Below are positions 10,527 to 20,372 of a stretch of 64,000 bases of DNA, piece by piece. Source of the DNA: Anabaena sp. PCC 7108 (GTDB lineage Bacteria > Cyanobacteriota > Cyanobacteriia > Cyanobacteriales > Nostocaceae); assembly GCF_000332135.1 (NCBI RefSeq), contig NZ_KB235896.1:3243321-3307320 (forward strand), written 5' to 3'. The notes beneath the pieces were generated by a model. It made no database searches. It had not been told where the DNA came from and saw only the letters and a program-made list of their open reading frames with translations. A program made the position numbers and the translations under genes. Every line of letters starts with the position of its first letter. Position 1 is the first letter of the stretch.

Positions 10527-10990
10527 CTACTTGGTAGCACCTGCGGGCTTACCGATAATTTCAGCGTGCTTGGTGTCATCATCAAGAATACCGAATTCAA
10601 TCAACAATGCTTCCAATTCATCCATTTCAATTGGGGTGGGGATGGTGAGGTTCTTGTTGTTGATGATCTTCTTAGCTAATGCGCGGTATTCATTACCCTG
10701 ATCGCTATCAGGTGCATATTCGTTAACGGTCATACGACGCAATTCTGCGTGTTGAACGATGTTGTCGCGGGGTACGAAGTGAATCATTTGAGTGTTCAAA
10801 CGTTCAGCCAAGGTTTCGATCAATTCGATTTCACGGTCAACCTTACGGCTGTTACAGATCAAACCACCTAAACGTACACCACCGGAGTGAGCATATTTTA
10901 AAACACCACGAGCGATGTTGTTTGCAGCGTACATCGCCATCATTTCACCTGATGTAACGATGTAGATTTCTTGTGCTTTACCTTCACGGA
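10527..10990 (-). CDS. nifH: nifH 3' part, interrupted
   Basis: This is the C-terminal portion of dinitrogenase reductase, 151 codons. It runs from [15 protein letters not shown] through the [14 protein letters not shown] nucleotide-binding segment to [10 protein letters not shown]. It has no start codon of its own in the correct place; the internal ATG at 10943 would give only a useless C-terminal fragment. Joined at the repeat to codons 1-145 it restores a continuous 296-residue NifH. The gap to nifD is 145 bp. Confidence 0.95.
10982..10990 (+). other. Direct repeat, left edge of nifH element
   Basis: CTTCACGGA on the plus strand (TCCGTGAAG in the nifH sense), encoding the Arg-Glu codons at the junction. 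An identical copy lies exactly 8,955 bp to the right. Recombination between the two leaves one copy and restores the reading frame. Confidence 0.9.
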
Positions 10991-11082
10991 AAAGAGCAAT
11001 AATATAATTTTAAAAGCCGGAAAATGTTTATTTTCTAAAATGTTTGCCACAATCATTGTTTTGAGTAAACAGTTTTTTTATT

Positions 11083-11100
11083 AGGGTAAATCTAGGGTAT
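11083..11100 (+). promoter_or_regulatory. Paired AGGGTA motif at left end of nifH element
   Basis: AGGGTAAA-TCT-AGGGTATG precedes and overlaps the recombinase start codon about 93 bp from the core repeat. A matching pair AGGGTAAA-AAAT-AGGGTAAA lies near the right end, about 125 bp from that core, in the same orientation. They are candidate accessory recombinase sites, which would also make the recombinase self-controlling. Confidence 0.4.
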
Positions 11101-12526
11101 GGACAGAACACAGGAAGCATTTGCCGATTTTCACCAAACAGCTATTACCGATGGGGGATATTTAGGCAGAATGCAAGCAGTAGAAAATCAAGAAAATCAC
11201 TTAACGGCAAAATTAATAACAGAATTAAAGGCAATTAATGCTAGACTAAGAGCCGCAAGGGTGAGTGTTTCTGTCAGAAAATCCGGTAATTCATTACAGT
11301 TGAGAACTACCCTCCCTATTAAACCAGATGATGTTGATAAAAACGGTATCGGCACAAAGCAATATGATATTTCTTTGGGAATACCATTTAGTTTTGATGG
11401 TTTAAATACTGCGGAAGAAGAAGCTAATGAGTTGGGAAGATTAATTGCTAGAAAACAATTTATCTGGACTGATAAATATTTAGGTAAAGCTAGATTTAAA
11501 GCAAAATTTATCACAATTGGAGAGTTGATTTCTGAGTTTGAGCAAAACTATTTTCAAACTAGAAAACGCACTCTCAAAAGTAATAATACTTTTAATAGTT
11601 ATTTCTATATTGCTAAAACACATTTACCAAAGGATAAAATAGCAATAAGTGCAAATTTTATTGATGCTGTGAAATTCTGCACGTCTTCGGATAGTGTGAA
11701 AAATGAATTAATTAAAGTAATTAGAGTTTTATGTAAATGTTCTGGTGTAGAAGTTCCAGAATTGAGTAATTTGAAAATTAAAGCTATTTCTCAACGTAAA
11801 CGTGATATACCGACTGATGCAGAGATAGAACAAGAATATCTCAAGTTTGAAAATTATGCTATCAATCGTTCTAGTAAGTTGATAACTAGGGAAGATAGAA
11901 ATAATTGGAAACTTTGGCGTTGGGTTTATGGGATGTTAGCAACTTATGGATTAAGACCGATTGAGATTTTTGTTAATCCTGATTTAAATTGGTGGTTGTC
12001 ATCAGACAATGTCATGAATACATGGCGTGTAAATGAGGAATGTAAAACTGGAGAACGGGAAGCTTTGCCATTATATCCGCGTTGGATAGAAACTTTTAAT
12101 TTAAAAACAGATACAGAAGCAATTGAGTTATTAAAAGCAAAAATTAAAGATAAAATTACAAGTCGAGAAATCAACTCTGCGCGACATGGTACAGATAGAT
12201 GGTTTAGATTTGTGGGGATTCCGTTTCAACCCTATGATTTACGGCATGGTTGGGCAATTAGAGCGCATTTAATGGGGATTCCTATTAAAGCTGCTGCTGA
12301 TAATTTGGGTCATTCTGTGAATATGCACACATCCATTTATCAAAAGTGGTTTAGTTTAGAAAATCGTAAAGTTGCAATTGAAGAAGCAATTAAGAAAAAA
12401 TCGAAATTGGAAGATTTACAAGATATGGTGATTAGATTGGAACAGGAAAATGAGAGGTTGAGAATTGAGAATGAAAGATTGAGGTTACAGATAGGAAATC
12501 AAGAGTTGATAAGAATGATTAATTAA
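11099..12526 (+). CDS. XisA/XisC-like tyrosine recombinase of the nifH element
   Basis: The 475-residue recombinase is predicted to excise the nifH element. Conserved catalytic segments are YGLRPIEIF (Arg near 286), PYDLRHGWAIR (near 380), LGHS and SIYQKWF (Tyr near 413). Tyr replaces the usual first His of HxLRH, as in the nifD-element enzyme. The N-terminal block (TAEEEANELGRLIARKQF, TDKYLGK) also matches that enzyme, and the C-terminus is a leucine/glutamate coiled coil. It starts about 109 bp from the nifH 3' junction and reads into the element. No other recombinase is visible in the element. Confidence 0.93.
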   Translation: MDRTQEAFADFHQTAITDGGYLGRMQAVENQENHLTAKLITELKAINARLRAARVSVSVRKSGNSLQLRTTLPIKPDDVDKNGIGTKQYDISLGIPFSFDGLNTAEEEANELGRLIARKQFIWTDKYLGKARFKAKFITIGELISEFEQNYFQTRKRTLKSNNTFNSYFYIAKTHLPKDKIAISANFIDAVKFCTSSDSVKNELIKVIRVLCKCSGVEVPELSNLKIKAISQRKRDIPTDAEIEQEYLKFENYAINRSSKLITREDRNNWKLWRWVYGMLATYGLRPIEIFVNPDLNWWLSSDNVMNTWRVNEECKTGEREALPLYPRWIETFNLKTDTEAIELLKAKIKDKITSREINSARHGTDRWFRFVGIPFQPYDLRHGWAIRAHLMGIPIKAAADNLGHSVNMHTSIYQKWFSLENRKVAIEEAIKKKSKLEDLQDMVIRLEQENERLRIENERLRLQIGNQELIRMIN

Positions 12527-18614: not shown

Positions 18615-19535
18615 CTAAAATACAGGATTGACTATAGCATGAATTGTCAGCTTATCATTGCTAGACTCGTTTAAATCACGAATCAATCCTTCAGGATTTT
18701 TAAGAAGTCCTTGGGGATCATAAACAAAACATAATAAGTATTCACAATCTGGATGACTTTGATATCTAATAATATCCGCAGCTAATTCATCACCAATTTT
18801 TTTGTCTTTGTGGGTGTCACTAGTTATCTTAGCTTCTATAGCTATTTTTTCTGCTTTTAGTAAGAAATCCATTCTTGATGGACTACCAGCAAAATTAGGA
18901 ATCACTTCTTCTTTTCTAATATCTTTAAAATCAATTTTCAAAAGAGAGTATAATAAATCTTGCACATCATATTCATCTTTGATTTTTAAAGTTTCTCTTC
19001 TTTTTCCTTTATCTAAACGCCTGTCTTCTAACTGTTGAGCAACTAGATGAAAACGTTGGCAAATTAGAATAAGTCTGTCTATAGATTTCTCTATACTTTT
19101 TTCTTGATAGTTTTTTGTAGACAAGTAAATTTCTACTTCATTTAATGATAGAGCATGGTTTACAGCACTAAGAACCTCATGATTAATTCTACGTATTTCA
19201 AGGACGGGTATTGGAGGCTCTTTGTTCTCTATTTCATAGTGATCAAATACATCTGCACAAATAATATCCTGTCTTGAAAGAATATCTCGAAACCTTATCA
19301 GAGTATTTATCAGTTGTTCTGGAGAGGAGAAGGACTCAGGTATGCGTAAATCCCAAAATGTTTCCTCTATATTGGAAACAATATTGAAGAGTGCTTGTCC
19401 AACTTCATCATGTTTGTAATAAAACCCGTAACCCTGATGAGGTTTGAGATTCTTCAGATCCTCGCGGTATTCTTGGATCTTAGCTTTAAAAAAGCTACTT
19501 AAGTAATCTTGAACCTCTGGTAAATAAATCTGCAT
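18615..19535 (-). CDS. PD-(D/E)XK nuclease-like protein
   Basis: The C-terminal third of this 306-residue protein has a restriction-endonuclease-like core: SRMDFLLKAEKIAIEAKIT gives the D...EAK catalytic pattern near residues 220-240, followed by ELAADIIRYQSHPDCEYLLCFVYDP. The N-terminal 200 residues are helical. Such proteins with an ELAADI-type C-terminus occur next to defence and mobile genes. There is no methylase of the restriction type next to it. It is the last gene before the right end of the nifH element. Confidence 0.7.
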   Translation of the reverse strand: MQIYLPEVQDYLSSFFKAKIQEYREDLKNLKPHQGYGFYYKHDEVGQALFNIVSNIEETFWDLRIPESFSSPEQLINTLIRFRDILSRQDIICADVFDHYEIENKEPPIPVLEIRRINHEVLSAVNHALSLNEVEIYLSTKNYQEKSIEKSIDRLILICQRFHLVAQQLEDRRLDKGKRRETLKIKDEYDVQDLLYSLLKIDFKDIRKEEVIPNFAGSPSRMDFLLKAEKIAIEAKITSDTHKDKKIGDELAADIIRYQSHPDCEYLLCFVYDPQGLLKNPEGLIRDLNESSNDKLTIHAIVNPVF

Positions 19536-19936
19536 TATTTCTCTCTATACTCTGTGAAAAGTAACATTAATAGCTTAACTTACTTCTGCACTACCTCAAA
19601 TACCATAATCCTAAAGCCTATTTCAAATAATTAGGTCAAATATAGCTTTATGCTAACTTGTATTATAGTCTGGAATATTGTAACCAAGTCTCTTAATCAC
19701 TCTCTGTTTTCTGACTTGATAAGTACATCCATAAATAAAATTAACTTGATATAGTAACCCATTTATCAAAAATCCTGTATCCCCATTGACACAGGGTAAA
19801 AAATAGGGTAAACAAAAGAATAAACCCCAACAAAAACCCTATTTTCCTAAAATTTCCCAGGGCATAAATAGGGCATAAAAAAATCAAAATTCCCAACCAA
19901 TTGCATTCACAAAAACCCCAGACAAAATAGCTTAAT
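19536..19936. other. Right end region of nifH element
   Basis: This 401-bp AT-rich stretch holds no gene. Near the end it contains AGGGTAAA at 19793-19800 and 19805-19812, an inverted AACCCTATTTT, and two AGGGCATAAA copies near 19860-19880, so an AGGGTA/AGGGCA motif is repeated toward the junction. These resemble arm-type sites of a tyrosine recombinase. Confidence 0.5.
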
Positions 19937-20372
19937 CTTCACGGATAGGCATAGCAAAACCACCACATACAACGTCACCTAATACGTCGTAAGATACGAA
20001 ATCTAAGTCTGTGTAAGCACCGTTTTCTTCTAAGAAGTTAATAGCGGTGATAATACCACGACCTGCACAACCTACACCGGGTTCTGGACCACCAGATTCT
20101 ACGCACTTAACACCACGGAAACCGGTCAACATGACTTCGTGGAGTTCCAAATCTTCAACAGCACCTCTTTCAGCAGCCAAGGAAAGAACGGTGGTTTGAG
20201 CCTTGGAGTGCAGCATCAAACGGGTAGAGTCAGCTTTAGGGTCGCAACCTACGATCATGATGCGTTGACCCATTTCAGCCATAGCTGCAAGGGTGTTTTG
20301 AGAGGTGGTAGATTTACCGATACCGCCCTTGCCGTAGAATGCTATCTGTCTAATATTTGCGTCAGTAGTCAT
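19932..20372 (-). CDS. nifH: nifH 5' part, interrupted
   Basis: Codons 1-145 of dinitrogenase reductase, plus one element-derived Asp and a stop. It contains Walker [15 protein letters not shown], the DPKADST segment, the first cluster cysteine in GVGCAGRG and the second in [10 protein letters not shown], so both [4Fe-4S] ligands of each subunit are on this side of the break. The start [17 protein letters not shown] is normal. Transcription comes from upstream, past nifU. A 146-residue fragment could be made if the gene is read before excision, but it cannot be functional. Confidence 0.95.
19937..19945 (+). other. Direct repeat, right edge of nifH element
   Basis: Second copy of CTTCACGGA. 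On the element side the nifH frame meets GAT-TAA immediately, ending the truncated protein. Confidence 0.9.

Follow-up and report, generated by a model that had tools for sequence, protein, structure and literature searches.

An XisG-class interruption element in nifH1 of Anabaena sp. PCC 7108, with arm-like motifs near its ends

How might a nitrogenase gene that lies in two pieces be made whole again, and how would the enzyme that joins the pieces find the right places at which to act? These questions are raised by a 64,000-nucleotide (nt) stretch of Anabaena sp. PCC 7108 (contig NZ_KB235896.1, positions 3,243,321 to 3,307,320; hereafter the window), in which nifH1 is split by DNA lying between two short direct repeats. 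We conclude that this DNA is very probably a nifH1 interruption element of the XisG class that is excised in heterocyst development; that excision occurs, and that it is specific to heterocysts, is expected by analogy with the literature on relatives. The anatomy of the element, its restored frame, its orthology, the conservation of its site, the selection on its genes and the motifs near its ends are direct observations.

The split gene and its recombinase

The features that define the interruption are as follows.

10527..10990, - strand: nifH1 3' part, which joins at codons 143-146 (frame reading)
19932..20372, - strand: nifH1 5' part, 146 codons, with a TAA stop inside the element (frame reading)
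10982..10990, unstranded: xisG-proximal direct repeat CTTCACGGA, with the conserved core CTTCACG (CGTGAAG in the nifH sense) at 10982-10988 (repeat search, relatives)
19937..19945, unstranded: distal direct repeat CTTCACGGA, with the conserved core at 19937-19943 (repeat search, relatives)
10991..19945, unstranded: nifH1 element, 8,955 bp, comprising the insert and one repeat copy (repeats, restored frame, site in relatives)
11099..12526, + strand: xisG, a tyrosine recombinase of XisA/XisC type, 475 aa (R286, K316, Y379, R382, H405 and Y414 invariant in 25 aligned XisG)

The two copies of CTTCACGGA, both on the + strand, are the only ones in the window, with none on the - strand, and they are spaced by 8,955 bp. 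When the nifH1 flanks are joined with a single repeat copy, 296 codons form one open frame, whose junction reads ATC-CGT-GAA-GGT-AAA-GCA; unjoined, the 5' part terminates after 146 residues (...PIRED*). The insert thus splits nifH between short direct repeats, and the frame returns upon its removal with one repeat copy. An earlier sequence-only reading had claimed that two exact repeats in nifH bound an 8,955-bp insert, that removal rejoins these six codons into a 296-codon NifH, and that the gene stops after 146 residues unless excised, and all of this is borne out by the located repeats, their spacing and the two frames. Its further claim that the element is excisable gains support from an XisG-class recombinase near one end, a constant insertion site in relatives and purifying selection.

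The repeat alone proves little, because the genome (5.89 Mb) contains 92 copies of its 8-mer CCGTGAAG, and 21 of 100 shuffles of the window hold at least two. A longer shared sequence, CCGTGAAGRTWAAGC, has exactly two copies in the genome, both at the nifH1 sites, and the looser extended core CGTGAAGRDWAAGS has three matches in the genome.

To place the element among its relatives, we searched 217 family genomes for XisG, counting as orthologues matches of at least 80% identity over the aligned part. Orthologues are found in 40 of them; the next matches listed are paralogues, 46-51% identical. The comparison covers 39 of the 40, the window genome included, and leaves out one (G099; G and L numbers are our handles for genomes and loci) in which xisG lies 88 bases from a contig end and the nifH 3' half likewise starts at codon 144 (L057, L070). 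The core was readable in 36 5' copies and 38 3' copies. In the window and its 38 relatives, CGTGAAG stands at nifH codons 143-146 in all 36 and all 38, respectively, while CCGTGAAG, which the window carries at these codons, is present in 36/36 5' copies and 32/38 3' copies, the base preceding CC being variable in the 3' core copy. Because CGTGAAG is universal and CCGTGAAG is not, the ninth base of the repeat is probably a chance match, and the crossover most likely falls within CGTGAAG. The nifD gene starts 592-647 nt after codon 143 of the nifH 3' half in 38 of the 39 genomes, the distance being unread in G216, whose 3' end lies outside the stretch taken. As a positive control, the element in G102 measures 5,173 bp and has the repeat CCGTGAAG. 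This agrees with the description of the nifH1 element in Nodularia spumigena CCY9414 (5.2 kb, recombinase XisG, repeats CCGTGAAG; PMC3610870).

The split nifH frame meets a TAA within two codons past the 5' core in 30 of 36 cases (L082-L119), and in a few relatives the 5' core instead retains a longer repeat, CCGTGAAGGTAAAGC. Such an early stop may restrict a read-through product.

The xisG gene adjoins the nifH1 3' part and runs opposite to nifH. Its product is an XisG orthologue and a tyrosine, not a serine, recombinase, with the tetrad R286-Y379-R382-Y414; a tyrosine at the usual first-histidine position of integrases is described for XisA, XisC and XisG in PMC3610870. All six residues listed above are also invariant in the four paralogues of the genome, and an equivalent of Y379 is present in five of five viral relatives. 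XisG is 47-49% identical to XisA and XisC, and the integrase family phrog_1 matches its residues 41-431 (6e-10). More distantly, a PDB sequence search gave a single weak match to a XerC-like recombinase (E 0.0004), and a plasmid collection held three tyrosine recombinases at 27-29% identity. The leader contains a conserved dyad, whereas the 38 xisG leaders contain no NtcA box, either as GTAN8TAC (0/38) or as GTN10AC (0/38).

11037..11059, unstranded: dyad conserved among xisG leaders, with consensus ACAATGTTTGC..AATCATTGT and the form AAAATGTTTGCCACAATCATTGT in the window (35 and 34 of 38 leaders match with at most one mismatch)

Residues 420-475 of XisG form a coiled-coil-like C-terminal tail with weak bZIP matches in 25/25 XisG (best E 0.0025) and in two of the four paralogues; this tail lies outside the matches of the five viral relatives and is perhaps an added regulatory or pairing part. 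In-frame stops occur in the xisG of L100 (G003; TAA) and L091 (G175; TGA), suggesting that some lineages may hold locked elements.

The viral relatives of XisG, integrases on five viral contigs with 26-30% identity, raise the possibility of an ordinary prophage or integrative element that sits in nifH by chance and is unlinked to development; the variable cargo described below, defence-like genes included, would fit such an origin. The site is constant in all relatives read, however, no structural phage or transfer gene occurs among the 10 open reading frames of the element scanned with Pfam, and excision of the orthologous element has been published (PMC3610870). We regard a chance insertion as very improbable.

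A second alternative is a relic that no longer excises. The sequence-only reading had named a second intact nifH carrying the function as a result that would speak against excision, and an intact copy does exist: nifH2 (299 aa, G000:C2:5418428-5419303, L001) lies far from the nif cluster, scores above the TIGR01287 nifH cut-off (467.5 vs 394.35 bits) and lacks the XisG core, with CGGGAAGG at the homologous position. It could thus supply dinitrogenase reductase. A single nifD, split into pieces, and a single nifK were found, both downstream of the nifH1 interruption; the remaining Oxidored_nitro matches we take, by position and gene order, to be nifE, nifN and chlorophyll genes. In an Anabaena variabilis xisA mutant, nif transcripts beyond its element are nearly lost (PMC4284476). 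Because of this arrangement and this precedent, nifH2 alone probably would not give nitrogenase. Both nifH1 halves and xisG are, moreover, under strong purifying selection: relative to four genomes of the same genus, nonsynonymous over synonymous divergence (dN/dS) is 0.015-0.026/0.26-0.33 for xisG, 0-0.003/0.07-0.13 for the nifH 3' half and 0-0.009/0.09-0.12 for the 5' half, which is not the pattern of genes that never work. The xisG of G175 was dropped from this calculation, its internal stop and offset making the value meaningless. Finally, N. spumigena carries nifH2 alongside a nifH1 rearrangement that is said to be demonstrated, with the activity credited to Vintila 2011, strain AV1 (PMC3610870). 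The second nifH is therefore real without overturning the proposal, and we consider a relic improbable.

Besides nifH2, further points weigh against an active XisG-class element. The extended core CGTGAAGRDWAAGS is not unique elsewhere, with 111 matches summed over 39 genomes, 71 of which are the nifH core copies read; the Pfam integrase match to XisG falls below cut-off (20.3 vs 27.1 bits); and the data for the strain are genome sequence alone. We nonetheless favor programmed excision, which would proceed as follows. In vegetative cells nifH1 would be split, and nifDK downstream would be cut off from the upstream promoters. In heterocyst development, the element-encoded XisG would recombine the two CGTGAAG cores, restoring nifH1 and releasing a circle whose size is 8,955 bp wherever the crossover falls within the repeat.

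Phased motifs near the ends of heterocyst elements

Phage lambda-type integration uses both core-type and arm-type sites. Arm-binding recombinases have been described (PMC8138268), and the ends of the XisG elements carry motifs in a comparable position. A phased tandem, CCCT-N6-8-CCCT, is found near both ends of all complete XisG elements (distal 35/35, proximal 35/35), compared with 6 occurrences in 205,867 bp of interior sequence on both strands; a single letter-by-letter shuffle of each end gave the pattern in 0 and 2 of 35. In the window these motifs are the following.

11082..11099, + strand: proximal arm-type motif TAGGGTAAATCTAGGGTA, an 11-bp tandem that overlaps the xisG start codon by one base (motif comparison)
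19859..19873, - strand: distal arm-type motif P1, CCCTATTTATGCCCT, at +73 from codon 143 of the 5' part (motif comparison)
19793..19808, - strand: distal arm-type motif P2, CCCTATTTTTTACCCT, at +138 (motif comparison)

The positions are nearly fixed. Measured from codon 143 of the 5' part, the first distal motif is at +71 to +74 in 34/35 elements and at +82 in G215; a second is present in 24/35, near +138 in 23 and at +171 in G215; and the proximal motif lies -105/-106 from the 3' part in 34/35, with G215 at -86. All share one orientation, and within the distal 20-230 bp agreement with the window is 89% for the CCCT columns, as against 70% for the others.

At the level of sequence, then, the elements resemble lambda-type sites in having two short cores and arm-type motifs inside the mobile DNA at both ends. 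They differ in that arm binding here is putative, no arm-binding domain being found with Pfam at E 10, and in that the element serves development instead of lysogeny. We think it fairly probable that XisG, or a partner protein, picks the correct cores by also binding the phased CCCT-N6-8-CCCT sites as arms. The putative arms of the distal end would be ~73 and ~138 bp in from it, and that of the xisG end ~106 bp in; since this last one overlaps the xisG start, binding may also repress xisG.

The overlap also admits another explanation, in which the motifs serve xis regulation as operators or parts of a promoter and are contacted by a host regulator or a directionality factor instead of the recombinase. 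The proximal copy overlaps or just precedes the xis start in each class examined, and the failure to recognize an arm-binding domain agrees with this explanation. The distal copies, however, lie kilobases from xis at class-typical distances (+71 to +74 in 34/35 for XisG, 69-73 nt past the core in 11/13 for XisA and +67 in 15/17 for XisC), and the words mostly differ with the recombinase, though those of XisG and XisC overlap. We treat regulatory operators as a serious but less probable alternative to recombinase arms.

The genome of the window holds four elements of this recombinase type: the nifH element of 8,955 bp, one in nifD at nt 894 (19,811 bp), the canonical XisA element in nifD at nt 1353 (58,034 bp; L022-L025, G000:C2:3174504-3232538) and the XisC element in hupL (3,790 bp; L021 4035-7825). 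The XisA, XisC and nifD-894 classes have a similar end layout with mostly other words. For XisA (nifD, GGATTACTCCG), 31 candidates have at least 70% identity and at least 400 aa, and both ends were found in the stretch for 13; TTTAGNCTA or TAGNCTAAA stands at both ends in 13/13 of these complete elements, with 3 occurrences in 109 kb of interior. For XisC (hupL), where 3 of 20 loci have no distal end in the stretch taken, TTCCCT occurs in 17/17 proximal and 16/17 distal ends and 30 times in 91 kb of interior. For nifD-894, 7/10 loci have TTAAG[AC]CA twice, 27 and 16 bp before xis (an 11-bp tandem), and the word recurs near the distal end in 6/7 readable ones. A leader pentamer repeated in tandem with period 11 is present in 38/38 XisG, 24/32 XisA, 8/10 nifD-894 and 20/20 XisC leaders.

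Several observations weigh against a simple arm-site reading. The 35 XisG elements share descent, and their motif counts are not 35 independent observations. No arm-binding domain was found with Pfam at E 10 in 25 XisG or the four paralogues, and the AlphaFold model built from 25 XisG orthologues is poor (mean predicted local distance difference test score 53, predicted template-modelling score 0.30); at this low confidence it places strands at 57-62, 65-73 and 86-96 and a helix at 105-117. The words are not exclusive: the XisG pattern also matches 16/17 XisC proximal ends, TTCCCT matches 12/35 XisG distal ends, the XisA word 5/35 XisG proximal ends and the nifD-894 word 4/13 XisA distal ends. 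The hupL element L216 lacks the distal TTCCCT word. The nifD-894 word is short and turns up 7 times in ~38 kb of interior from the seven loci that were read; L199 carries another word in its place, and L188 and L193, which are 52-56% identical, do not have the nifD-894 word. Other periods score too, namely 16 (XisG 0.71, XisA 0.50), 8 and 14 (XisC 0.85) and 12 (XisC 0.60).

With these points counted, we still lean slightly towards a general proposal in which the tyrosine-class heterocyst elements would be lambda-like machines. XisA, XisC, XisG and the nifD-894 enzyme would each read an arm word of their own. Tandem copies of this word, spaced by roughly a helical turn, would lie close to the xis start, and the word would recur within the element at ~70 bp from its far end. 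These arms would pick out the correct pair of cores from some hundred in the genome, give the reaction its direction and make xis expression depend on the site's state, and the recombinase module would be exchangeable between genera at the same site while the cargo and the target gene stay.

Apparent exchange of xisG; cargo and neighboring elements

That last component of the proposal draws on the history of xisG itself. In the xisG tree, the 13 genomes of a Dolichospermum-type genus (g17) form two groups, one of which is nested with Anabaena (g1), and keeping g17 together is rejected (approximately unbiased test, p-AU 0.0015). The chlN tree likewise does not hold g17 as one clade, which leaves the xisG split alone a weak argument. 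More telling, both the chlN and the nifD trees reject the xisG-type grouping of g1, G175 and five Anabaena-like g17 members (p-AU 4e-8 and 5e-79). The tree groups were defined once the identities were known, which makes the p values indicative. Neither of these two trees includes G168 (cut short or doubtful row), and chlN was not found in G048 and G056, G048 being absent from the chlN tree.

Individual loci are mosaic. G044 and G046 agree at 96% of positions over the adjacent 870 nt of cargo and at 97.6% over the part that runs from the core into nifD, compared with 83.4% over xisG with its leader. In G054 the type changes between -2 and +38 of the core, with a few other-type sites on either side. 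Across the mosaic loci (L084-L119; G044/G046 and G054/G043), the xisG versions differ by ~17-20%, while the adjacent cargo and/or nif genes are unchanged. Both XisG types (as in G054 and G043) would then act on one kind of distal end. It seems that xisG has been exchanged between genera with the neighboring cargo and nif genes staying, and the mosaics would fit if one end of the exchanged segment fell at the core or close to it, although homologous recombination within the conserved nifH is also a possibility.

Among the genes of the element, only xisG is found in 35/35 complete elements; the cargo genes occur in 1-12 of the 35, some of them partial.

13240..15075, + strand: ATP-binding cassette (ABC) transporter, 611 aa (2/35 elements, the window and G007)
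15293..15604, + strand: 103-aa protein with a signal-peptide-like start by eye (window element alone among 35)
16085..16810, - strand: S-adenosylmethionine (SAM) methyltransferase (matches in 6/35 elements, some partial)
17179..17445, + strand: UPF0175 protein (11/35 elements)
17542..17961, - strand: aspartyl-protease-like protein (Pfam below cut-off), matching PADLOC candidate defence PDC-M52B (8/35 elements)
17954..18214, - strand: PADLOC PDC-M52A match (12/35 elements, two partial)
18615..19535, - strand: protein with a DpnII/MboI-type nuclease domain (3/35 elements)

The PDC-M52A/B pair (17542-18214; PADLOC E 1e-45 and 3e-78) is possibly a defence cargo within a developmental element. Between two near-identical repeats resembling miniature inverted-repeat transposable elements, in opposite orientation at 13060-13185 and 15946-16072, lie the genes for the ABC transporter and the 103-aa protein. 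These genes are missing from 33 and 34 of the 35 elements, respectively, and may have entered as a unit. Scans of the surroundings gave no Rfam match at the gathering threshold in 10000-21000 and no tRNA in the 64-kb window.

Next to nifH1, the nifD gene is itself interrupted.

9452..10381, - strand: nifD first part, interrupted at nt 894 by a second element (comparison)

This nifD-894 element, with the repeat TATTCCCTG and its own XisA-type gene, is seen in the window at 9480-9488 and 7953-9356 and extends to the left of it. Its recombinase gene starts ~1.7 kb from xisG and faces away from it. Farther inside, it encodes a Uma2 protein (7356-7964) and a protein of 1,036 aa that matches DUF3854, DUF5906 and D5_N and resembles those of phage or plasmid satellites (4193-7303).

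Relation to known systems

The system was described in 2011-2013, and the window element adds one strain to a described class. Its closest counterpart is the nifH1 element of N. spumigena, with which it shares the nifH site, the core CCGTGAAG, an R-Y-R-Y recombinase of XisA/C type and an xis gene at the nifH 3' end opposite to nifH; the N. spumigena XisG (G102) is 85% identical to that of the window. The two differ in size (8,955 bp and not ~5.2 kb), in cargo and in the longer, 9-bp chance repeat of the window. In Anabaena sp. 90, nifH is reported to be in three parts (153, 273 and 444 bp; PMC3542288), so that its second break, at nt 426, is at the site of the present element, whereas its additional nifH element at nt 153 falls where the 5' part in the window is unbroken. 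The nifD (XisA) and hupL (XisC) elements are alike in their tyrosine recombinases (47-49% identical), direct repeats and similar arm-motif layout, and differ in target genes, in cores and partly in arm words. The sequence-only reading had called nifH a less commonly reported target than nifD, fdxN or hupL, but nifH is not a rare target: among 101 elements in 38 genomes, 19 are in nifH, second after 34 in nifD and ahead of 11 in hupL (PMC4874684).

Our literature search for papers with both XisG and nifH gave PMC3610870 alone, and among the literature matches listed, with subscription papers outside the search, no arm-type term stood alongside xisA or heterocyst. The arm-site layout is new here and, together with the exchange of the recombinase, is the part that deserves attention. 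How XisG picks two among the 111 copies of the 8-bp repeat in the N. spumigena genome is posed as an open question in PMC3610870; the phased motifs, if they are arm sites, would answer it and extend the answer to the classic nifD and hupL systems. Whether such elements were kept or lost and regained is asked in PMC4874684, and from the xisG tree and the mosaic loci it would seem that the recombinase module, at least, passes between genera. If the arm sites are real, the specificity of programmed excision in heterocysts would become dissectable in simple plasmid assays.

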